Below are positions 1,596 to 58,600 of a stretch of DNA of 64,000 bases, in pieces. The position numbers and the translations under genes were made by a program. Where the stretch lies: NCBI RefSeq assembly GCF_018143015.1, contig NC_054741.1, forward strand, positions 63,834,697 to 63,898,696. The letters run 5' to 3'. The notes beneath the pieces are model-generated. The model was not told the DNA's origin and made no database searches. It was given only the letters and a program-made list of their open reading frames with translations. Numbering within the stretch: the stretch's first letter is position 1; the number at the start of each line of letters is the position of its first letter. Origin of the DNA: Lytechinus variegatus (taxonomy: Eukaryota; Echinodermata; Echinoidea; Temnopleuroida; Toxopneustidae).

Positions 1596-4510
1596 CGCAT
1601 ACATTCGTAATTCCGAAGCTTCGTAATTCCGAAGGTTCGGTTATTCCGAAGGTTCGTATTTCCGAAGGTTCGTAATTCCGAAGGTTCGTCAATCCGAAAA
1701 CGAAATAAGGTTCGTAATTCCGAAGGTTCGTTAATCCGAAAACGAAATAAGGTTCGTAATTCCGAAGGTTCGTTAATCCGAAAACAAAATAAGGTTCGTA
1801 ATTCCGAAGGTTCGTTAATCCGAAAACGAAATAAGGTTCGTTAATCCGAAAATTAAATAAGGTTCGTATTTTCGAAAATGAAAATAATTCATTTTGGTAA
1901 CAAAAACGATGTTGTCATTACAAGATTACACGATATTATGCAATGATAGTAATAACGATCGATTATACATGCGTGTGTTGGGGCCAAAGCATGTATTTCA
2001 TTAAGAATATAGGCGCCCTGATCAAGTATAGGCTAATTTCGATTTTATCTGAGCAATTGCTGCCTATAAGCAAATGGTTTAATTAAAGATGCAGGGGATC
2101 AAGTGTGTTGGAAGCGTGCGAGCAACCTCTAGATAATAGGATTTGTATTGGAGGGGATGTCATTTTTAATAACAGCTTCTGCTGGTGATAAAAATAAAAA
2201 TAATACTAATAATGTTCCTTGTGAGATGTTGAAAGCGAATCACAAGCTCAAACTAGTAGACATTTCATGTAACAAGACGTGAAGTGAGCATTCGGAGCAT
2301 TTTTTGTAATCGTGAGAAAGATGTGTATCTTTCTAAAGGGCGAGGGCGAGCTGTAATTTGTTTATATACTGACCTGGGGCCCGTTGCATGAAACTTTTTA
2401 CCTGAGAAAACTCAGGTTGTTTTTACAGTTTTTGCCCTGTGCTAAAGTCAGTGGCGGAAATCAGACTAACCTTAGTTTTCATTTTTTACCAGAGTTTTCT
2501 CAGGTAAAAAGTTTTATGCAACAGGCTTCAGAAAGTGTCTTTTTAAGACTGCATTTAGTGACTCATGAATAGAATATAATATCTTACGAACTAAATAATG
2601 AGAGCGCGAACCGCAAGCTTAAAATTTGTGATATTCCAACCTGAAAACTGGACATTTCATACTTCTTTTTTGTAACCAGGAATAGAATGAGTTCCTCAAT
2701 AAACAATACTTGATGCGAGCGAGAAACGTGAGCCAAATTTTTCCGATTTTCCAACCTGAAAACTGGACATTTTTATAAGCATTCTTGTAAAAAAAATAAT
2801 AATAGCTGGGAGAATAGTTTTCAGAACTGAAGTGGCTTCCCTGGGTAAATAATATCTATATCAATATTATCATTCTAGGCCCACATGAAATTTCCAAAAG
2901 TTTGAGCACGTGATCCGCTCGCAACATCTCACAAGAGTTAGGATGCCCTTTTAACAGTAATTGACCAAAAAGGTGAATTTTACATCTTCAGATTTGACTT
3001 TTTCCCCCAAACCGCTTGCTCTCTACGCTCGCAGAAATGAAACGTAAATATATAACTTTAGTGATCACTTAAAAAATTGTGCTCAATTTAGTTACTACAA
3101 AACACACAACCTCTTTACACAGATGATAATCTAATGGTGAAAATATCCGTTTGCACCAAATTGCCCCTATTGGCCCCTTTTTTTGCTTTGCCCCCCCCCC
3201 AAAAAAAAAAAATACGTTCCGCCGCCATTGGTTAAAACACGCATCGTCTTCATGGCTAACTGCAAAAAGTTCTTAAAATGTCCCCTTTAGATCAGGTCGG
3301 GAGGGAGGCAGGGGGCATCAAAAATGAAATAAAAAACATGGGAATTAATATTTTCCAAAATGGGAAAGTTCCTTTTTCAAAAATAAATATGCCGTTTTTC
3401 ATGTTTTTTCGAAATAAAATACTCTTTTTAAAGTATACAAGTTAAGTTAAGTTTTCAGGCTGGAATATTGAAAATTTTCTGCTTGCGCTTCGCACTCTCA
3501 TTCGATTGGTGAAATATGCATCCTAAAAAAATCACTAAATGCTTTCTTTAACAGGTTCCTTTTCTGGTCAGTATGTTTAAGCTCGCGTTTTGCGCTCGTG
3601 TTAATTCTTTAGTTAGATGCACATCTTTTTAATGACAGCAGAAATCTGTTCGGATTTTTAAAAACTAATTTTCATTTTTTATTGAAATAACCTAAAGTTT
3701 TAGCTTGTGATTCACGCTCGCAACACCTCGCAATAATACCATTTTAAGAATAATTGACCACAAAAAACGTTATACAACTTCACCTTTGAATTTGTTTTAC
3801 CAAACCTAAATATACATTTTGCCATAATAAGAAGTCACTTCAAAAAAGTTTTTCTCTACTTAATCACTATCAAACACACAATGACTTCAAGCAGATGATA
3901 ATCTTAAGGTGAAAATATCACCAAAGTGCCCATTTTGACGTATGAGTTTCATTTTTTGGCTTTACCCCCAACGAAAATTCGTTCGGCCGCCCTTGCCTTC
4001 CCATCCTCATAATAATTGAAGGGCAAAAGTGTCCCCCTCCCCTTGCCTCTGCCTCTGCTTTCCCGGTTTTCATTTTTCGGATTAACGAACCTTATTTTGT
4101 TTTCGGATTAACGAGCCTTATTTTGTTTTCGGATTAACGAACCTTATTTCGTTTTCGGATTAACGAACCTTCGGAAAAACGAACCTTATTTCGTTTTCGG
4201 ATCAACGAACCTTCGGAACAACGAACCTTTTTTCGTTTTCGGATTAACGAACCTTCGGAACAACGAACCTTATTTCGTTTTCGGATTAACGAACCTTCGG
4301 AACAACGAACCTTATTTCGTTTTCGGATTATCGAACCTTCGGAATAACGAATCGTCGGAATTACGCCACAAATGTTCGGATTAACGAACCCCTTTTCGTT
4401 TTCGGATTAACGAACATCGAGGTATTGGCAATTTACGTGTTTCGGAATTACAAACCTTCGGAATAAAGAACCTTCGGAATTACGAAGCTTCGGAATTACG
4501 AAGTGTAACC
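1596..4510. mobile_element. Fold-back element with tandem-repeat arms (TU-like)
   Basis: About 2.9 kb. The left arm (about 1603-1870) is built of repeated modules such as AATTCCGAAGGTTCG and TTAATCCGAAAACGAAATAA. The right arm (about 4075-4505) is the same module set in inverted orientation. The 9-bp CGCTAATGC lies outside both ends (1587-1595 and 4511-4519), which supports insertion as one unit. The inside is also roughly symmetric: degraded copies of a CG-rich module (GCGAGCG.../...CGCTCGC) point outward from the middle. No transposase ORF is visible. Modular fold-back TU elements are known from sea urchins; belonging to that group is inference from structure. Confidence 0.7.
2374..2530. 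mobile_element. Hairpin MITE with GGGGCCCGTTGCA end
   Basis: The left end CTGGGGCCCGTTGCATGAAA and the right end TTTTATGCAACAGGCTTCAG are inverted. They continue as a stem (TTTTTACCTGAGAAAACTC and its complement). It lies inside the fold-back element at 1596-4510, so it probably inserted later. No target duplication was clear. Confidence 0.6.
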
Positions 4511-6214: not shown

Positions 6215-9200
6215 TAGTCGATTTGACAGTCTCATAGGCTCAATACACCAACCTAGAAATGTTCTTTCCGATGAAGTTTTTTTCTTGATTCGTGTTCCTA
6301 AGGGGTCCTAGAACAAATTCAGCTTGGTTGCCAAAAGTTGCCGTTTGGGCAATTTTGCTAATTTGCATAAATCCAAAATGGCCGCCAGATGCCATCTTGA
6401 AAACCTAACTTTTGAACCCCTGTCCACAAAATGATGAGTAATGACTCGTTTTAGGGGTTCAGAGATGTGTAGAACTGATTTCTGTAATCACTTTTGCAAT
6501 ATAAGGTCATCTTCAGTTCAAATCCAAGATGGCCGCCATATGCAATCTTGAAAAATTGACTTTTGTTCCCCTTGCCCAAGAATGACGAGTAATACCTCTA
6601 CTTAGGGGTTTTGGGGTGTGCAGAATCCATTTCTGCTTTCTATTTTGCAATATAATGTCATCTTCAGGTCAAATCCAAGATGGCCGCCATATGACGCCAT
6701 CTTGAAATATCAATTTTTGAACCCTTTGCCCCAGAATCATGCATAATAACTCTATTCATGAGTCATTAGGTATGTTGATTCAATTCATGTAGTTATTTTG
6801 CACAAAGGATAATCTTCAGATCAAATCCAAGATGGCCGCCAACCACCATCTTGAAAAATTACTGTCTGAGGCTTACACGTATTAGAACTAATGTAAAGGG
6901 ATTTCAGTAAGATACTCATTTCTTTTATTAATTCTCAAGTTTTTGTCCCAGAATCATGAATAATATCCCTCTTTTCGTGAGTTATTTGGTATGTTTATTC
7001 AATTTCTCTTCATAATTTTGCAATGTAGGATCATCTCCAGGTCAAAATAATCCAACATGACCACTAAACGCCATATTAAGAAAGAAAAACTACTTCCGAG
7101 ACTATTGAACCTTGAAGAAGTGCTGTCCCTAATAAGGTTGTTGTTATGTATTGGAGCTCATGTAAGGGGATTTCAGTGAGAATGATTCATTTCTTTTAAT
7201 CACTCCATTTTTAGTTTGAGGTCAAGTCATGTCTAAGATGGTCAGATGGTTGATAGATTTCGTCATTAACCGCTCACTTTAGAATTAAACCATTCAAGGT
7301 CTGGGCTATGATTTCGGGTGTTTTGATCCCTTTTTTTTCTGTGCAACCATACTTTTCCAGTGAAATGACTTTAAAGTATTATTTGAATTAAAAAGTGATT
7401 TCTCCGTATTTTTTGTTCAAAAAATTGATTTGATTATTAACTTCCTTTATAATTATTATTGGACTTTTCCTCCTTACAAGAGCCATTGACTTGGTCAGCA
7501 GGAGTGCACTCTTTAGCCTCCTGCAGAAGATAGGCTCCCCAAGACTGTTCCACGGTCAGGATTGTTCTCATTCGTGAAATGTTTTACGGAAACGATGTCG
7601 CCCCTGCCTCTCAAGAAGTGGGAGTACAAGACCTAGTCATACATAACAGCTGCCTGTCTTGTGCATGTAAGGGGTATGGACCATCCATCAGACTTTGAGA
7701 CAGTCAGAAATCCTGATAGACTCAAGACACCGACTGTCCTCCAGATATGTATATCAACAGCACACACTCGTCTGGTTATGGTGGACTCCTCACCTACCTT
7801 GGACCGACTATATGTCTCTTGTCCCCTTTCACAGGACAAGCATATTCAGGATTGTAAAATCTGTCACAGTCATGGCCAAGCTCCTGCACGGAAGTAAGTC
7901 CTGGAAAACCTACGCCGACCAAGAAAAGTGGCTAAACACCTTCCATGTCAGCTGCCTCAGACGTATCATGCACGTTAAATGGCAGGACAAAGTGAAAAAA
8001 ATACAGAGGCCCTTCAGCGTACTTGCTGACATCAAAAGCTTATTCTCGCTCCTTAGTCAAAGGCACCTCAGGTGGTTGGGGCATGTTTGCCCCATGAAAC
8101 CTTGGCGAATCCCTTCTTGGATTCGCCAAGGTAAGGTAAGCTGTGTGATTGGTCTCACCCCATCGATAGATCACACCTCCGTTTTAAAGACACATGCAAA
8201 TATGACATAAAACTTGCCGGCATATAGACACTAACACTTATGAAGGTGTAGATGATAGTCGCCATCCATTCTATGGAGAGCTACTAAGTACAGGGGTCAA
8301 GACGTCAGAAAATAATCGGAATGCTAAATTGGCAGACCAAAGGCCTAGGAGGAAGGCTAGGGCAGCATCTCTATATAAACGTGTCTCAGCGCCATCCTCC
8401 TTCATCTGTAAAAATTTGCTCTCGAGAGTGCCACTCTAGAGTGGTGCTCTATAGTCACTCTCGAAAATGTTAAGGTCTAGCGCTACACCATCGTCTTTTA
8501 AGGCGAACTGATGCCTACCAATCATTGGACACATTGATTTAGAAAAATTATATTGATAAAACACTTTCAATTGAAATAAGACCCTAAAAGCCTCTTCAGT
8601 ACAAAGTTATGAATGGACCTTAAAAAATACACTCGAAATGGATAGCCCAAACCTAAAGAGGATTCATTCTAAGTTGAGCAATTAATGTTGAAATGAACTT
8701 GAGAATTAATAAAAGAAATGAGTATTCTTACTGAAATCCCTTTACATTCGTTCTAACACGTATAAGCCTCAGACAGTAATTTTTCAAGATGGCGGTTGGC
8801 GGCCATCTTGGATTTGATCTGAAGATTATCCTTTGTGCAAAATAACTACATGAATTGAATCAACATACCTAATGACTCATGAATAGAGTTATTATTCATG
8901 ATTCTGGGGCAAAGGGTTCAACAATTGATATTTCAAGATGGCGTCATATGGCGGCCATCTTGGATTTGACCTGAAGATGACATTATATTGCAAAATAAAA
9001 AGCAGAAATGGATTCTGCACACCCCAAAACCCCTAAGTAGAGGTATTACTCGTCATTCTGGGGCAAGGGGAACACAGGTCAATTTTTCAAGATTGCATAT
9101 GGCGGCCATCTTGGATTTGACCTAAAGATGACCTTATATTGCAAAAATGATTACAGAAATCAGTTCTACACATCTCTAAACCCCTAAAACGAGTCATTAC

Positions 9201-9409
9201 TCATCATTTTGTGGACAGGGGTTCAAAAGTTAGGTTTTCAAGATGGCATCTGGCGGCCATTTTGGATTTATGCAAATTAGCAAAATTGCCCAAACGGCAA
9301 CTTTTGGCAACCAAGCTGAATTTGTTCTAGGACCCCATAGGAACACGAATCAAGAAAAAAACTTCATCGGAAAGAACATTTCTAGGTTCGGAAAATGTCA
9401 AATCGACTA
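6215..9409. mobile_element. Large inverted-repeat element with ~700-bp arms
   Basis: The left arm (6215 to about 6940) matches the inverted right arm (about 8699-9409) almost along its full length. The tips are TAGTCGATTTGACA and TGTCAAATCGACTA. Each arm is built of ~160-bp modules carrying ATCCAAGATGGCCGCCA next to CATCTTGAAAA, and further worn modules continue to about 7190. The centre holds a LINE fragment and unassigned DNA. No transposase was seen, so the element appears non-autonomous. Confidence 0.65.
7480..8260 (+). mobile_element. LINE (non-LTR) reverse transcriptase 3' fragment
   Basis: Pieces in more than one frame read like the end of a LINE reverse transcriptase. An early piece is LVSRSALFSLLQKIGSPR (near 7490-7545). 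Later pieces are WLNTFHVSCLRRIMHVKWQD (7930-7989) and LSQRHLRWLGHVCPM, then RFKDTCKYDIKLAGI ending at a stop near 8226. These match the familiar ...LNTFHxRCLRRIL...RLRWLGHVxRM... tail of animal LINEs. The frame shifts and missing domains make it a dead fragment. It lies between the arms of the inverted-repeat element. Superfamily not assigned. Confidence 0.7.
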
Positions 9410-48264: not shown

Positions 48265-49348
48265 TCCAACTTCACATAGTCTAAACTCATTTCGTCTACA
48301 ACCAGTACGTCTAATATCCAATTCGTCCAATTCCCAATTGGTCTAATATCCAATTTGTCTAATTAGCAGTTGGGCTAAAACCATTTAGTCTAATGTCCAG
48401 TTGGTCTTTATGAGAAAATAAATTGAAATTGAATTGAAATTGAAATTGTCTAACACAGCTTTGTCTAATTTCAACTTTGGCTAATTTCCACTTGATCTAA
48501 TTTTCATTTGGTCTAATTGTCACACGGTCTAATAACCGTTTGGTCTAAATTTCCACTAAGTCGAATTTCCACTTGGTCTAATAGCCAAATCGTCTAATGA
48601 CCACTTGGTCTAATCGCCAATTGGTCTAATACCCAGTTGGGCTAATCGTCACTTGGTCTAATTTTCATTTGGTCTAATTCACACTTGGTCTAATGTCCAT
48701 TTATTCTAACATAACATTATTAATTATTATTTATTTGATCTAGAATAATTTGATAATTTTTTAAATCAGCTTTTCACAAAGTTAAACGATCCCTTTAACA
48801 AATATGGTACGTAGTGGATAAATACCAAGCATCAGTTGCCAGGATCCGGAGGGGTAGAGCCTGGATCGGGTGGGCGCATAACCTTCACCGTGAAGGACTA
48901 TCGATGACGAGATCAAATGAATTATTCTAATCAAATATAATTCTTGTAATTAGGCCTACATATCGATTATATAGATGATAATTATATCATACTGATAATC
49001 ATTTCATCACTACATGCACATTTACAGAATAATAAACTGGCCCGGGACCTTGGACCATGGTCGAATGGTCGAATCGCGGGGTTTCATCAGAATAACATTA
49101 TTACTGAAGAAAGGAACGAAAATATAATCATAGAGCTATTTGTGGATACGCATCTGGTAAACAAGTTTATGCCTCTTTTAAATCATTGGTATGCATCATT
49201 ACGGACGATACTTGAACTTGATGGAAAATAAGCAATAGTTATGCAGTTTGGGGGATTCCAAAAGTTAAAAAGCCACTAGATCATGTAATTTTGTTATGAA
49301 TATTTTGTTTAGTCATTCCAATAGTTAGTTTGGAGGCAAATAACAGAC

Positions 49349-49499
49349 CTGGGGCCCGTTGCAGAAAGAGTTGCAATCAATCGTAACTCTAAAAATCACG
49401 CGCAACTTGATTTTCAACCAATCAACAGCGCGCATTTGGAACTTGCGATTGATTTTTTGACTTGCGTTTAAACGCAACTCTTTCTGCAACGGACCCCAG
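49349..49499. mobile_element. Hairpin MITE with GGGGCCCGTTGCA end
   Basis: CTGGGGCCCGTTGCAGAAAG faces CTTTCTGCAACGGACCCCAG, continuing as a stem with AGTTGC/GCAACT. It has the same tip as 2374-2530 but an unrelated stem. Confidence 0.65.
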
Positions 49500-49509
49500 T
49501 TATAGTTTC

Positions 49510-49915
49510 ATAGGTGGATTCAGTGGGGGCCCGAGGGGCCCGGCTTCTCCCCTCCCCCTTTTGGCGGAGCAAAAAAAAAGAAAAAAAAGGGGGAAAAAGA
49601 AAAAAGAAAAAGAAGGGAAAAGAAAGGAGGAAAAAAGAAGAGGAAAATAAGAGGAGGAAGACGAGTGAACAAAGTAAGGTCAGTGGAAAACTTAGAAAAT
49701 GATTTAGAAATATATATTACATATCTTGCTCAATAGGCTGATATGCAGCTTAAAATATCAAGTTTTGAAGTCAATACAAAAACATATTTCAGCTCAGACA
49801 TCGAGCTTTTATTATTCTGTTTGATTTACAAATTTCTTTTTTAAAGCGCTCTGTAAAATGTCCGTTTTACGGTTGAATATCATTTACAGCTTATTGCGCT
49901 GTGCGCCAAGTAGGC
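49510..49915. mobile_element. Left part of hAT-like array element
   Basis: TAGGTGGATTCA, a G/C-run and an A/G-rich stretch, then AGACGAGTGAACAAAGTAAGG, match 21444-21650. The copy is cut by the insertion at 49916-50714. Confidence 0.55.
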
Positions 49916-50714
49916 AGAGGCGTCGATCCGGGGGGGGGGGTGATCGCCCCACCAATGAAAATATTTGGGGCAAACATATCGTTTTGCCCACCCCCCCCAA
50001 TATTTCTGCATGTGCAAAAATAAAATAAAGATTGTATTGTTACACAGAAATCAACAGCGAGATTGAAATACACAACTCAATCTTTATTTAAAATCGCTTT
50101 AAAAATGTCCGCTTTTTCAGATTGGAATATAAAAATTGTCAGCTCGCGCTTCGCGCTCGCATCATTTCTGTGGTAAAAACCCATACTTTTCATGATTAAA
50201 TTGTGAATAGAAGTCCCATTTTCAATTCTAATCCTCAAAAGAACTCCAGCTTCGATTTGCAATATACCTTGTTCTTTATCAAAAACGTCCATTAAACTGT
50301 CATTTTTTTTCAGATCGTAATATCAAAATTTTCAGCTCGCGCTTTGAGCTCGCATCTATTGTTTTAGATACCCATCTTAATCATTGGTATCAAAAGTGCT
50401 TAGAGTATCAAGCTTTCGGGTCAGAATATAAAGAAACTTCAGCTGGCTCTCGGCACTCGCATTATCTGTGTAGTACTACAAACAGTCCTAAACAGGTACC
50501 TTTTCCGGTTTTCAGGTCAGTATACAAAAAAAAAATCAGATCGCGCTTCGTGCTCGCATTAATTTGTTGGTGAGATATGTGGCTCTTGCTCATGAGTTTT
50601 ATATATTAGGCCTATGTGTGTGTGTGTTTTGTGTGATCGAGCGCCTTTGGAACGAAAACGGTGATTCATGATTTTGCCCCCCCCCCCCATCTGAAAAATG
50701 GAACGACGTCCCTG
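49916..50714. mobile_element. hAT-like element with AGAGGCGTCGATCC end
   Basis: Sister of 24817-25593 in the opposite direction, with CGCGCTTCGCGCTCGC-type cores. CAAGTAGGC flanks both sides (49907-49915 and 50715-50723), an 8-9 bp target duplication. It inserted into an older hAT-like copy. No transposase. Confidence 0.7.
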
Positions 50715-50723
50715 CAAGTAGGC

Positions 50724-51242
50724 CTACATATTGCCTGTGTTTATAGATTCTTTATAAACTCCTCAAAAAAGGTCTGAAATTCTGATTTTGATCGATAATT
50801 CCTCCTCGGTTTTAGTAAATATCAATGATTAATTAATAGCAATAAATAGAACATTTAATTTTCTTTAAAAATGATACCCTACATGATATGATTATGGTTC
50901 ACATGGAAGTGCAGTGCCTTGAAATGTGGGGGCAATGTCAAAATTCAAAAGTTGCAAAATGGCACAATATTGAAAGTTATTGTACTTTTTCCCGTTTCTT
51001 TTAATTTGTTTTCATGCACCTTGACATCAACATTAACATGGAATAAAATACACCTCTGCACAAGCAAACACATAACAAACAAACATTGCATGGGTATTTC
51101 AAACCACGACTCAAACCATGTTATCTCACAGAACCATCGCTACATAACCTTAATTTGTGATGGCATATGATCATAACAAGCATAGTATCATTTTAAAGAA
51201 AATTAACTGATATTTTTAATAATATCAAATATGGATTGTGTG
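50724..51242. other. Interior of composite fold-back, unassigned
   Basis: AT-rich DNA with one 83-codon open frame of no recognisable family (50919-51170). Confidence 0.35.
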
Positions 51243-51560
51243 AAATATTAGACAAACTGGTATGAGACGAAGTGCAATTAGACCAAGTGACAATAAAATA
51301 CAGTAGACCAAATTAAAATTAGACCAAGTGACGATTAGCCCAACTGGGCATTAGACCAAGTGGCTATTGGACCAAGTGGTCATTAGACCAATTGGCTATT
51401 AAACCAAGTGGTCATTTGACCAAAAGAGAATTGGACTATGATGGTTTAGCCCGAATGTTGTTAGCCCATCTGATGATTAGACCAAGTGATATTTTAGACC
51501 ATCCGTCAGTAAACCGCTAAATGTGGGACCTTCTACTTCAGTATATACCATAGTGATGTA

Positions 51561-52465
51561 AGCTTAAAAGTGCCACCGAAATGTTGAGATAATTATCTCG
51601 GGAAGTCGACATCTTGATAGCAAAATATAAGATGACGAGATCCTGGATCTCATCATGTTGACATCTTTTAGAAGAGATGATGAGATGACGAGATCCTGGA
51701 TCTCATCATGTCAACATCTTTTAGAAGAGATGTTGAGATGACGAGATCCTGGATCTCATCATGTCAACATCTTTTAGAAGAGATGTTGAGATGACGAGAT
51801 CCTGGATCTCATCATGTCGACATCTTTTAGAAGAGATGATGAGATGACAAGATCCTGGATCTCATCATGTCAACATCTTTTAGAACAGATGATGAGATGA
51901 CAAGATCCCGGATCTCATCATGTCAACATCTTTTAGAAGAGATGTTGAGATGACAAGATCCCGGATCTCATCATGTTGACATCTTGTAGAAAAGATGATG
52001 AGATGATGAGATGATCTTGTCATCTCAACATCTCTTCTTAAGATGTTGACATGATGAGATCCAGGATCTTGTCATCTCATCATCTCTTCTACAAGATGTC
52101 AACATGATGAGATCCAGGATCTTGTCATCTCATCATCTCTTCTACAAGATGTCAACATGATGAGATCCGGGATCTTGTCATCTCATCATCTCTTCCAAAA
52201 GATGTCAACATGATGAGATCCAGGATCTTGTCATCTCATCATCTCTTCTAAAAGATGTCAACATGATGAGATCCGGGATCTTGTCATCTCAACATCTCTT
52301 CTAAAAGATGTTGACATGATGAGATCTGGGATCTTGTCATCTCATCATCTCTTCTAAAAGATGTCGACATGATGAGATCCAGGATCTCGTCATCTTATCT
52401 TTTGCTATCAAGATGTCGACTTCCCGAGATAATTATCTCAACATCTCGGTGGCACTTTTAAGCTT
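51561..52465. mobile_element. 905-bp fold-back of 53-bp units upstream of MND1
   Basis: Near-perfect palindrome centred near 52013. The outer tips AGCTTAAAAGTGCCACCGA and its complement are followed by GATAATTATCTCGGGAAGTC. Then come seven 53-bp units per arm, each holding the small palindrome GAGATCC(T/C)GGATCTC and ATCATGT.AACATCTT. A 16-bp direct repeat with one mismatch (ATACCATAGTGATGTA, 51545-51560; ATACCATAGAGATGTA, 52468-52483) flanks it. No ORF; structure recalls sea urchin TU/fold-back elements. Confidence 0.8.
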
Positions 52466-52471
52466 CCATAC

Positions 52472-52513
52472 CATAGAGATGTATACTAATTATATTTAGT
52501 ATATATCTCTATG
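52472..52513. repeat. 42-bp palindrome in MND1 5' region
   Basis: CATAGAGATGTATACTAA pairs with TTAGTATATATCTCTATG (one mismatch) around a short AT loop, about 105 bp before the MND1 start codon. Confidence 0.6.
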
Positions 52514-52618: not shown

Positions 52619-55600
52619 ATGGTGAGTATTTCACGTTTTATTAAAAGCACAGCAAATAACCAAAATACGGGATTATATTATTTAAGGCTTGAACATTACA
52701 GAATTGGCCTCAAATGTATTAATGAACGCTGCGAGAATTCGGTTGCTTTGTGAGTTTGTCTCCTCCAGATCGATCCTTGTTCATTGAATGAGTGCCAGCG
52801 CAGTCACCATCCATGACCACCATGCATGTCTATGGACTTGGGTTACCTCAGGCGAATTCATGCAGGTTCTCCACTCCAATTCACTACCGCTACACTACAC
52901 TCCACCTAGTGTAGCGGTAGTGAAGTGGAGTGGAGCCTTCACGAACTTCGCCTGAGGTAGGACTTGGTCAGTACCACTCATTCAATGAACCGGGGCCGAT
53001 TGCACGAAAGGGTCTTTGCAAGAACAGTCTTTTGTGTCGCCCATTTGCATTTATTATGATGCGCCATGTGAAACGCAATTTTAATAAATTATTTGCAAAC
53101 ATTTATCCATTAAAGAAGACAAAATTGTTTATGAAATGATGTGATATATCATGAAATTGCATACAGATTGGTTTAAATGCTAGAGCTTTGTTTATCATAC
53201 ATTTCAGAAATATCCCGCATACAGCGCATCATAAAAGATGGGCGACACGAAAGACGGTCCTAGGAAAGAACCTTTCGTGCAGTCGGCCCAAGGTGAAGGT
53301 CATGATATAACCTTGTTCTCAGTTACATCTCCATGTGTGGCAAAATAAGGGTGGCAATTTTGGCTTATTTTCTCTTTTTCTATGGGACAAATGCTTTATT
53401 TTCTTACACTGTCAGTTTTCAATACAGCTATTCAGTATACAACTTGGCTCTTATGTAAATGTGATTCTTTAAATTATTTTTTGTAGATGAAAATAGAGAT
53501 TGAAATATGAAAATTTTCTTGCCATATTACTTTCCACTAATGGAGGGCGTTCAAAAAAATATGCCCAAAATTCAAGTTTTTGAGTGCTCTGGTGAATACA
53601 AAAATTATTCCCAAGTTATTAATGAAAATTAAATTGCAACTGTATGGAAATTAGATAATGTCGGTCACAAAAGTGATAGTTTAATGATTTTTTAAAGTGT
53701 GTGCTATGTACAGCATTGGCATACCATAGTCCTACCTGGGCTGTAGAACCCCACAGGAAGGATGGTTGCAGTGAACAAGTGGTCAGTACTATTAACCCAG
53801 GGGCCTGTGGTATGAAATGGTCTTTGGTAGTACCGCTCTAGATAAGGCCTATAGCTTATGAACCCATTATATTCACAGTCCTTACAAATGAAGATTATGT
53901 CATTGTACCTATGAAAGATAAGATTATGGAAAGTCCGTTATCGATCGGCAAATAGTCTTGACTCCTCAACTTTAAAATGTTGAACATATGATTTCCACTT
54001 GGTTTTTTTGCTTCCATCTGGTAGAGCTTCATGAGGTTCACCAAACTTCAACACAGAATTTTGACCAGAACAATTTTTATGCTAATTTATCTATAAAAGT
54101 TATGTCAACATGATATACATGTACAGTGGTACTCATAAGTTTAGTGAGCCTCACCAGAACAATGAACATATTTAAAGTGTTTAAGTTCTGCCATGTTTCA
54201 TATAATGATATCAGATGATATTAAATTTTTCATTAAAGTTTGTTTCTCTGGATTCGCCACAAACATTATAATGTTGTTGTCTACATTCAAAACTTGGCAT
54301 GAATGGGTGCATTTTGTAGTAGATTTCACAAACTTTTGAGAGCAACTGTACCTAGTTAATTTTTTGTTATTTATTCATGTTAACTTTGGAAGCCTGTTAT
54401 ATCATGTTCCTTTATAGTGTTTTAGATAATTAGATGACTGCTGTAAAGTAATATATGCTTTTTGTCTCAATTTTCACTATGTAGTCTAAGAAACGTGGAC
54501 TCAGTTTGGAGGAAAAGAGGCTGAGGATGCAAGAGATATTTTTTGAAAAGGTATGTGAATGCAATTTTAGAGCTAATTTGGTATCAATTGGTAAGTTTAC
54601 TGTGGAAATTCAGAAGTAATGATTCCATTTTCACATTTATTGGGATTTTCAACATGTATCATTTATCTGTTTAATGTAAACTGTTGACCAAATTTTTACA
54701 TTATCACCATCATCAGATCAAACTTGAGAATACTCTTTGCCTTTAACACAAACACATCACTGGATGCAATAGCTCAGAGTTTCAACACTTGCAGACCTGC
54801 CAACCAGTACGTTTTTGGCGTATTTAGTACGCTTTTTTTTTTACATTGTCTCTATTTCATACAACTTACACAAATATGGTTATTAGATCAATGTAATTTC
54901 AGGTAACTTTTTTTTTTAATTTTGTTAAAACCAGGGTGAGATATAATAATAATAATAATAATAGCGGTATTTATAAAGCGCCTTTTGCCTGAGGATACAA
55001 AGCGCTGCTATTATTACCCAGGCTTTAGCTCGAGCTGCCATCACCGGCGCTCAGTGCATGCAAGGAATTGATCCTGCCGGGTACCCATTCACCTCACCTG
55101 GGTCGAGTGCAGCACATTGCGGATAAATATACACATATGTCAATGTTTTTTTTTTCATCTGCAATCTAGTGTGCATTTTACCTTGCATACAGCTTGAGCG
55201 CCGTGATGAGCGAGTGCGCCATGCATTTTATCATGAAATATACACTTTTTTGGGGAAAACTACCATTTTTTTTAATCACAGAATACAATTTTTCATTCCC
55301 AGAGGTTGGCAGGTCTGCACTTGATAAAAGAATACATTGTAATCAGTGTTTAGAAGAAGGGGTAGGGGTACATCCTTTGCAAATTAGCCCACGAGTTCAC
55401 ATTTGAAAATCAATTAAAAGCACTTTTATAATCCTTTGTTTTGGGGGGGGGGGGTTGAAGAGGGTTCACATATCAGCAATACAGTGTAGGTTGGCTGTTA
55501 CAGTCATGTAAATAAAACCAAGAATGTTTGTTACAATGTATGTAGTCATTATTTATTAGGATTATTTTATCATCAACATCGATAGTTGAGAATTAGCTGA

Positions 55601-58600
55601 CCACGACTAGAAAACAGTGATTAAGAGAAAAGTCTATTCACAACTCACAAAATACATGTAAGTGCCTCATTGACCTTATATTGATAACTTTTCTCAAAAT
55701 CAACATTTTAAGGCCTTCTTTTTGTCAATGCCCAATATGCATATTCAACCCTTGAGTCTTACCCCTTTAATATATCTTTCTTGCAGAAAGGTGTATTCCA
55801 GCTGAAAGAAATTGAGAAAATAGCACCTAAGGAAAAGGGTATAAGTAAGTATTACATGTGTATAACTATTTGTATGCTTCAAATACTTATATTCAGTGCA
55901 TCCTAGGCTGTGTAAAGGAGAGTCAACTTATGCATATTAAAATCAGTACACTTTTCATCAAAGAGTAGGAAGTTCACCCAGTATATTGCAAATGTCAGAC
56001 CTGGCAAACTTCAATAGTACTATAATACACCTGTTGATCAGCAGAATCAAGTGTTTTGAACCCCTTTTTAAATGTCTCTACATCTTTAATATACTTCTGT
56101 CCAATCGAGATTTAGCGATGATTTATCTTGACTTAATTCCAAATAACCAGAACTTTATTATTTTTTGACCATTTTCTGTAATTGAGGTATCAAATTAAAG
56201 AGCAGATAGCGAACTTTTTAAAAATGTGGTTTACTTTCTGAAACCCAGATACAGCCTGCCAAGTGACTTTTTGGTATCCCCTGTTCATATTGTTTTTGCT
56301 CACTCATGCGTGAATGAGAAATAATCTAAGTAATTTGAGATGAAAGAGGAGATTCTAAGCTTTACAATGGTGGGTCATTTGTCTATTGTATTTGTGATTA
56401 ATTTATGATAAATCATAAATAAATCTTGGTTTTGTTTTTTGTGGGACTTTGGGTGTATTCTCAGATAAATTAACTGGACATGTATATTTCATTTAGGAAA
56501 TGTTTTAATTCCCTTTTTGAGTACTGTGATAGACATGCTACCAAATAAGTTGTTACAACTTGCAATTGTGTCTCTTTCGAACAACGAGAATGAAGGGTTA
56601 AAGAAAAGAAAAGGGTCATCTAAATTATACATTGTCCAAATACTATGATAAATCTCAGACCCTCACCTATATTCAATAGGCAAGCAATCCCTTGAGCTGC
56701 CAATGTACATCACATGTCGATCCTTGGTATTAGCTTTGATTATTAGAAGATTTTATCTTGTTAATTTGTATTCTATCGTATTTGCTATAACCAGCGAGTC
56801 ACAGGTGGATTACAATATTGTCTTGTCCAATATTTTGCTTGCAGCCCCTATGGCAGTTAAAGATGTACTCCAAAGCCTTGTAGATGATGGATTGGTGGAC
56901 TCTGATAGGATAGGAACGTCAAATTACTTCTGGGCCTTCCCGAGTAAGGCTAGCCAAGTGGTAAGTGGTTCTCCGGCCTACATGAACACACACACATGCT
57001 CTCAACTTTGAACTCTATTTCATAGTCACTTTTAGGATCTTCAGATGTTCAGGAAATCTGATGGACAAATGTAGTAATGCCACACAGTATGGGTTCCACA
57101 AGTTATGGCTTAAAGGGGAATGAAACCTTTGGAAGAAGTATGCTTGTGTTGAAACAGAAAAGAAATTTTGAGAAAAATCGGACAAATAATGAGAAAGTTA
57201 TGAGCATTTGAATATTGCAATCACTAATGCTATAGAGATCCTCCCATTGGCAATGCGACAAGGATGTGGGATGTCACATGTTAACAACTTTCCCTTTGAT
57301 GGACTATAAAATACCCTCAAAGTGTCTCTTTTTGCTTTTTCTTATGGTGATACAATCTCTTTATCCATGATTTATTCTTTAAAAATCTGTATTACATGCC
57401 CTCCTATAGAAAGAACACATTATCTACTGACAGAATATCTTAAAAGGGGCAATTTAAGAGAAATATATACTTAAGTAATGGGGAGAGTTGTTCACAAGTG
57501 ACATCACACATCTTTGTCGCATTGCCAATTTTAGGATATCCATAGCATTAGTGATCGCAATATTCAAATGCTCATAACTTTTTTATTACTTGTCTGATTT
57601 TTCTCAAACTTTTGTTGATCTGTTTGTTTGATTTTTCTGCTTTCACACAAACTATTTTGTTCCAAAGGTTTCATTCTCCTTTAAGTGTTGAAGGGATTAA
57701 AGTCCCAACAAAGACCCTACCCCCCCCCCCCATCCCCTGCCATTATGGTGTTAGTGTTCAATATGTGATTATACTGTACATTGAGGTACAAGAATAGACC
57801 AGAAAAGATGCAAAATTCTCCCTCCCTTTGCTTTTTTTTTTACTTTATCTTGTCACAAAAACTTAATCAAACCACACATAAAACTAGTCATGTGTTGGGT
57901 TTATTTTTTCAATTACTGAAAGAAGGGGAGGGGTAGGGGGAAAGAAAGAGAAGAAAAAAGAATGAAGAGTCTCAAAATGTGAGGTCTGGATCATGTTAAG
58001 CCTCTATTCTACCTCTGGTATATATTCCAGTGAAAACAAAAAGATGTAGACTTTGCCTTTACGTTGTCTTTTCCTCTCCCCCTTTCAAAATACTCTTGCT
58101 CCACCATTGAAACTAGTAGTTTCTATGTTCATTTCTGTTTCCATCATTCTATCATTTGCATTATTTTATTTGCAGAGAAAGAGGAAAATTCAAGATCTTA
58201 CTAAAGCCCTGGATGAAAGTGAAAAGAAGCGGATATCCCTGGAGAAAACTGCAGCCAAGTCAACAGTGGGCAAAGAGGAATCTGTAAGTATTTTGAACTC
58301 TTTACACATGTTAAGCCCCATGGACCAATCCCCATCAAATTTAGTTTGTGGATATTTTTCTTCATGCTCCAACGAAATATATTAAAAAAACACTCACATG
58401 CAAACAAAATAATAGTGTAGTCATCGCTTTAGCATTCATTACACAATTTTGTGTAATGTGACCCCTTTCGTTTTGCTGATACTCTGAAATGGAAGTAAAG
58501 AGTAAATTCACAAATGGACATCTAGAAAAAAAATGGGAAGTTTTTACTGACCAATGTGTACAGATTTTTTATTATCAAGTCAAGATCTGTTCAAAGTTGT

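Follow-up and report, generated by a model that had tools for sequence, protein, structure and literature searches.

The TU foldback elements of sea urchins are built of modular short tandem repeats arranged within long inverted repeats and generate 8-bp target duplications. Judged by this general description, the family reported here resembles TU elements in its repeat architecture and is unlike them in duplicating 6 rather than 8 bp. In the excerpted literature, foldbacks are assigned mostly to Mutator, with exceptions, and those of sea urchins are mentioned by way of a 1983 citation (PMC4079207). Tetris, a foldback of Drosophila virilis described in the same excerpts, combines, as the present family does, a flank domain with internal tandem repeats and supplies building blocks of satellites (compare the array on contig C7 described below), but it is assigned to Mutator and produces duplications of 8–10 bp (PMC4079207). 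In the 2-TIR elements of Galileo, also from Drosophila, almost the whole element consists of long terminal inverted repeats (TIRs) of variable length, as it does here. The available parts of the Galileo study attribute the variation in TIR length within one subfamily to internal tandem repeats and report the longest TIRs in non-autonomous copies; they place Galileo in the P superfamily, with 7-bp duplications implied, in contrast to the 6-bp duplications and TATGG ends found here (PMC3573991).

According to the excerpted reports, TA..TA termini and duplications usually 6 bp long characterize complete IS3EU families (PMC10045372), and one fungal IS3EU set has TAYGG..CCRTA ends and 6-bp duplications (PMC12730594). 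The present family shares with IS3EU, as described there, the 6-bp duplications, the TA..TA termini, the TAYGG..CCRTA ends and TIRs longer than 30 bp, but it is unlike IS3EU in showing no transposase or accessory gene in the copies examined, in its long arms of 53-bp units and in its estimated ~950 elements (PMC10045372; PMC12730594). IS481EU also combines short and long target duplications within one family; in the excerpts available, these are ~4, 15 or 25 bp long and the ends read TNT..AYA or TGT..ACA, whereas the duplications here are 6 bp and, rarely, 12–16 bp (PMC10045372).

In Lytechinus variegatus, the palindrome beside MND1 is a copy belonging to a family of non-coding foldback (2-TIR) DNA transposons that is present in many copies and was mobile recently. 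Very probably, this copy is non-autonomous, was most likely moved by an IS3EU-type transposase and came to lie before MND1 by ordinary insertion.

Structure, dispersal and insertion sites of the family

The window, i.e., the whole 64-kb stretch of DNA analysed, holds one copy of the foldback family, a non-coding 2-TIR element at 51560–52470 (no strand assigned) whose limits were set from the 40 loci of the 906-bp class. The first-pass annotation had delimited 905 bp, which captured the element and required correction at the edges: other copies show that the element ends on the right with the CCATA at 52470 and that it has lost the TATGG with which most copies begin on the left. The arms (51556–51985 and 52040–52469) are 430 nt each, 93% complementary and separated by 54 nt in the outer register; the inverted repeat is thus as described, but at ~93% it falls short of “near-perfect.” From left to right, the copy comprises an outer flank domain of the TIR (AAGCTTAAAAGTGCCACCG..., 51560–51628, + strand, without the outer 5 bp and with an approximate inner limit), a left arm in which about seven 53-bp units carry GAGATCC.GGATCTC-type cores (51629–52012, + strand), a self-folding 54-nt centre that is not palindromic in the outer register (51986–52039, no strand), a right arm of about seven inverted 53-bp units (52013–52395, − strand), the limits of both arms being approximate, and a right outer flank domain ending in GGTGGCACTTTTAAGCTTCCATA (52396–52470, − strand), which was compared with other copies. 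Tandem Repeats Finder reports 14.5 copies of a 53-bp unit at 91% match over 51632–52395, in keeping with the seven units facing seven that had been proposed, and the small palindrome ascribed to each unit is seen in the units as GAGATCC.GGATCTC or a near match to it. Folded as a single strand, the palindrome is predicted to form one hairpin with a 3-nt loop and a centre that is also paired. Its predicted energy is −764.8 kcal/mol, whereas 20 dinucleotide shuffles averaged −277.7 kcal/mol and none of them was as low. This predicted stability is far beyond chance. The arms and the fold bear out the existence of the palindrome beside MND1, and its sequence would allow either a hairpin or a cruciform, as had been suggested.

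A search of the 869.6-Mb assembly (33 contigs) with the 905-bp core returned 88 rows, which include at least 41 full-length or nearly full-length places at 99–100% identity; these lie on 17 contigs and count the window copy among them. The remaining rows are mostly opposite-strand matches to the same places. The figure of 41 is a lower bound, as 40 of the 978 first-look candidates were scored. The 23-bp end TATGGAAGCTTAAAAGTGCCACC, allowing up to 3 mismatches, gave 946 forward and 955 reverse matches (1,901 together), against 2 + 2 (4) for the reversed control pattern. If these ends are paired, they therefore correspond to ~950 elements, and we infer a family of roughly a thousand members sharing the end sequence TATGGAAGCTTAAAAGTG. 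Long inverted repeats built of tandem units extend to both ends of the element, and many dispersed copies are flanked by target duplications, the two features by which a foldback (2-TIR) transposon is recognized.

The 906-bp class consists of arms only. Across its 40 aligned copies, divergence from the consensus averages 0.28% (median 0.22%) and pairwise differences average 0.55%; L009, L010, L011 and L027 carry no substitution relative to the consensus, and the window copy differs from it at 2 sites. This low divergence points to a recent spread of the class, window copy included, to which one source copy probably gave rise. Element length ranges from 449 to 3,435 bp across the 23 members sampled.

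Insertion sites were read at 65 loci, namely 40 of the 906-bp class (L001 and L009–L047, L002–L008 having been dropped as repeats of L009–L015) and 25 further loci (L048–L072), all on C1, that formed TIR pairs among the first 100 TIR places, a choice that favours intact elements. They yielded 70 insertion units. Both outer pentamers (TATGG...CCATA), situated 5 bp outside the AAGCTT border, are intact in 63 units, and an outer end is defective in the other 7 (the window copy, L012, L013, L018, L033, L036 and L037). A perfect 6-bp target duplication lies exactly outside the TATGG/CCATA position in 56/70 units; among the single-unit loci, counting the composite L022, the figure is 48/61. At loci with multiple ends, pairs with matching duplications were taken first and the shortest remaining pairs thereafter, which favours matches in L022, L034, L071 and L072; in L034, two matching pairs have one end in common and both were counted. 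These duplications and the dispersed copies uphold the earlier suggestion that the palindrome is an insertion.

In 14 of the 70 units, no perfect 6-bp duplication is present. Duplications of 12–16 bp were found in three of them (the window copy, L013 and L036) and 7-bp duplications in L050 and L065, while L018, L020 and L029 show shifted or longer matches, and L010, one pairing of L034, L043, L051, L064 and L067 show no clear match. In the window copy, which has lost the left TATGG, the duplication is 12 bp long with one mismatch, reading CCATAGTGATGT on the left (51548–51559) and CCATAGAGATGT on the right (52471–52482), neither with a strand assigned, and it reaches up to 16 bp when the ends are taken as shorter (left copy at most ATACCATAGTGATGTA, 51545–51560). 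The 16-bp flanking direct repeat annotated at 51545–51560 and 52468–52483 is accordingly present, with one mismatch, but it is atypical of a family whose norm is 6 bp. L036 exhibits the same two oddities (no left TATGG, 14–15 bp duplicated), and L013 lacks terminal bases and has 12–14 bp duplicated. A simple 6-bp cut gives no explanation for these long duplications, and since 3/70 units are too few, no second discrete duplication mode, such as IS481EU has, is called here. A 42-bp palindrome (52472–52513, 21-bp arms, 90% complementary) is also found right at the insertion point of the window copy; because it abuts this point, the target site was possibly palindromic beforehand.

When both strands of the 56 target sites are pooled, C is found two bases before the duplication (and G two bases after it) at a frequency of 0.54, and the middle two bases of the duplication are A or T at 0.83 each. 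Family members also serve as targets: L071 and L072 contain nested self-insertions with inner duplications TCTCTT and TCTTGT, and in L034 and L089 the insertion has hit the TIR of another member, both times at TAAAAG, which suggests that this site is a self-target hot spot. On C13 (8597203–8601107, L022), two members 26 bp apart are enclosed by a single 6-bp duplication (CCCCAC), as if both had moved jointly as a composite. On C1, a 477-bp element occurs with the same near flanks at ~58.2 and 63.7 Mb (L064 and L067), 5.5 Mb apart; the two seem to be one duplicated insertion and point to segmental or assembly duplication.

Proposed superfamily assignment and the search for a transposase

The ends TATGG..CCATA conform exactly to TAYGG..CCRTA in 63/70 units and the target duplication is a perfect 6 bp in 56/70, in agreement with the definition of IS3EU given in the excerpted sources (PMC10045372; PMC12730594). 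By these sequence features, IS3EU-type is the best filing for the family, as distinct from a proven membership; it draws on the ends and the duplication length, since the searches described below recovered no transposase-coding relative.

No transposase gene is evident in the two longer copies examined for coding content. L068 (3,435 bp) includes a 2.2-kb non-arm middle and shows no transposase gene, the longest open reading frame (ORF) touching the element being 98 aa long and lying partly outside it. L089 measures 4,929 bp end to end and has a non-coding middle: its longest ORF is 119 aa, and the 10 ORFs searched of the 18 listed (≥55 aa) gave no Pfam match at E 0.1. The middle of L068 was also considered as captured host DNA, but capture by this single copy is ruled out, as it matches at least 39 further places at 92–97% (40 of 2,366 candidates scored) and forms, in L089, the inner part of a longer member.

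The TIR is followed by non-family sequence at 11 places, and no autonomous partner occurs among those read. Seven of these departures fall within one array on C7, another, on C6, represents a 4-bp variant of the family's start, and the remaining three (L081–L083) are diverged relatives, two with a paired end and one with an unpaired end. The C7 array (29742500–29745500, L084) consists of about two dozen tandem units, mostly 59, 62–63 or 70 bp long, that bear the family end motif, either as CACTTTTAAGCTTCCATA or in closely similar form; by analogy with Tetris, it is apparently a satellite built from transposon ends. One-base variants of the flank domain occur at 24 places, 15 of them within 5 kb of matches to the L068 middle, and L070 and L089 were read among them. 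The flank domain is followed by other sequence at 2 places, both in known copies (L050 and L059), and led to no new element.

On the protein side, Pfam rva_4 (PF24764), which we take to be a possible IS3EU transposase, gave 35 match rows in the assembly. Around the rva_4 loci L076–L080 and L085–L087, no pair of TAYGG..CCRTA ends flanked by a 6-bp duplication was found; L087 has 3 weak end pairs without duplication, against 1.3 on average in shuffles. The rve_3 domain (PF13683; 150 of 604 candidates scored) does not discriminate, because many of its matches, a large number of them in open frames of 900–1,600 aa, look like retroelement polyproteins. A search of the assembly for alpha-kinase, described in the excerpted report as a partner gene in fungal IS3EU (PMC12730594), returned 3 rows at one locus. 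Among the TIR and flank-domain departures, the rva_4 loci, L068 and L089, no transposase-coding relative with the family ends was found.

In the mechanism that we propose, a transposase encoded elsewhere, most likely of the IS3EU type, would recognize the two identical ends TATGGAAGCTTAAAAGTGCCACC, excise the element and insert it at a staggered 6-bp cut, in a putative cut-and-paste reaction with a preference for symmetrical target sites, C-N-[6 bp with central A/T]-N-G. Growth and shrinkage of the arms by 53-bp tandem units would then give rise to elements of 449 to 3,435 bp, in addition to the 4.9-kb form with a non-coding middle.

Among the competing explanations, the one that survives best keeps the same foldback transposon and assigns its movement to a transposase of another superfamily with 6-bp duplications (hAT6, Polinton, GingerRoot or an undescribed one), which we regard as improbable while still deserving weight. 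Duplications of 6 bp are indeed also produced by hAT6, according to a title cited in PMC12730594, and, in the excerpts of PMC10045372, by Polinton and by GingerRoot, the latter with mostly TA..TA ends; moreover, our searches of this assembly did not identify an IS3EU transposase. However, the TATGG..CCATA ends match the excerpted TAYGG..CCRTA exactly (PMC12730594), and GingerRoot would amount to much the same answer, since IS3EU/GingerRoot is written as one superfamily in the portion available (PMC10045372). The preferred reading, an IS3EU-type transposase, would extend to IS3EU-type ends a foldback architecture that is mostly Mutator according to the excerpted Tetris paper (PMC4079207). A literature search for IS3EU together with foldback, with most subscription journals and Repbase outside its scope, matched oyster satellites as its sole subject. 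Membership in IS481EU was considered separately and ruled out by the criteria in the excerpts of PMC10045372: the family ends in TATGG..CCATA, its duplications are predominantly 6 bp, and long ones are limited to 3/70 units.

Possible exchange between the arms

The 40 copies of the 906-bp class carry 82 distinct changes in their arms, 14 of which turn a base that is mismatched between the arms into the base of the mirror arm. Random placement at sites with the same starting base predicts 3.1 such changes, and none of 20,000 trials reached 14. Changes common to at least two copies are more frequent among the mirror changes (6/14) than among those at arm-matched sites (3/64; Fisher p 0.0007). 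The four-gamete test identified 7 incompatible pairs, each including a mirror-change site, with incompatibility in 4/15 pairs of two mirror-change sites, 3/18 mixed pairs and 0/3 others. These patterns hint that repeated arm-to-arm conversion may account for the switching of mirror bases and that the arms may interact in vivo. Part of the signal could stem from exchange among copies or among units or from old variants of the source copy, and likewise from an older source copy whose bases were symmetrical. In the outer 200 bp of the 23 elements of different size, identity is 0.955 between the arms of one element and 0.941 between elements, and the best match of the left arm is its own right arm in 1/23 elements. 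Because the excess of own-arm likeness is small and an older symmetrical source is possible, arm conversion is kept here as a hint. The more ambitious reading, according to which a foldback family would here for the first time be linked to an IS3EU-type transposase, might still be polymorphic in living animals and would have arms that meet physically and undergo conversion via a hairpin or cruciform, is a tentative possibility that we doubt more than we favour.

The copy before MND1

The MND1 gene called in the first-pass annotation is present on the + strand, with a Pfam Mnd1 match (PF03962, 55.8 bits) in the translation of a 31-residue exon at 56847–56942. An 18-residue exon at 55787–55849 (+) also matches PF03962 in translation, at 22.5 bits, which alone is below the cut-off, and exon 2 (22 residues) lies at 54485–54550 (+). 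The start codon is placed, by the fit to exon 2, at the ATG of 52619–52621 (+), directly before a GTGAGT splice donor. Compared by eye with the human protein, more stretches among the downstream ORFs presumably belong to MND1 as well. From the element end at 52470 to this inferred ATG there are 148 bp, in accordance with the ~150 bp initially given.

As a feature of MND1 itself, the palindrome finds no support: it is a dispersed mobile element, near-identical at 40 further places, and none of the observations connects it with MND1 expression. Its position is best read as an ordinary insertion, one that probably leaves MND1 unaffected. A regulatory or recombination palindrome with a selected function in front of MND1 could find encouragement in the 148 bp that separate it from the inferred start codon and in its very stable predicted hairpin; at least 40 further near-identical copies, flanks that differ in the loci read and a window copy only 2/906 bases from the class consensus make this explanation very unlikely. 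Indeed, being so close to the consensus, the sequence of the window copy is explained by recent copying without selection at MND1. Long palindromes are known to be troublesome for assembly, but an inverted duplication created from fold-back reads can practically be dismissed, since near-identical copies sit at 40 other places, and the copies at the 39 further loci read match in length, or almost so, have their own different flanks and mostly their own short target duplication. Equally negligible is a local satellite expansion folded back on itself without transposition, which would suit the tandem 53-bp arrays of the arms and the array of end-motif units on C7 but is contradicted by the fixed ends, the 6-bp duplications and the genome-wide dispersal. 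The interest resides in the family rather than in MND1: some thousand long palindromes of common kinship, with known positions, constitute, given that 41 or more are almost identical and that a target duplication marks the majority of the copies read, a natural experiment on the effects of a 0.9-kb palindrome on nearby genes, replication and recombination, of which the MND1 copy is one instance.

A second Mnd1 match was found on C2 (66322150–66327479, L088), ~2.4 Mb away on the other strand, with introns 81–89% alike to those of MND1 in the window. It was considered as an empty site for the palindrome and set aside: alignment runs only from intron 1 onward, nothing upstream of it in the 8 kb read being alignable to the window, so that L088 provides no filled/empty comparison. 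Either a genuine duplication or a residual second haplotype in the assembly would account for it.

Within the inferred intron 1 of MND1, inverted repeats occur at 52869–52935 (29 nt, 97%) and 52993–53289 (52 nt, 87%). Further away in the window, a foldback-like element at 6250–9388 has arms of 663 nt (6250–6912 and 8726–9388) that are 98% complementary and contain 151-bp tandem units, with 1.8 kb between them, and another foldback-like structure (1604–4502) has inverted arrays of 16/26/42-bp TTCGTAATTCCGAAGG-type units at 1604–1883 and 4074–4502 around a 2.2-kb middle. Lastly, inverted arrays of degenerate 16-bp units (CTTGGTCTAATTTCCA / ATTAGACCAAGTGG) at 48301–51490 enclose ~2.6 kb, the right array ending ~70 bp before the palindrome on the MND1 side. 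Together with the palindrome, these three structures bring to at least four the long inverted repeats with tandem arms in the window.
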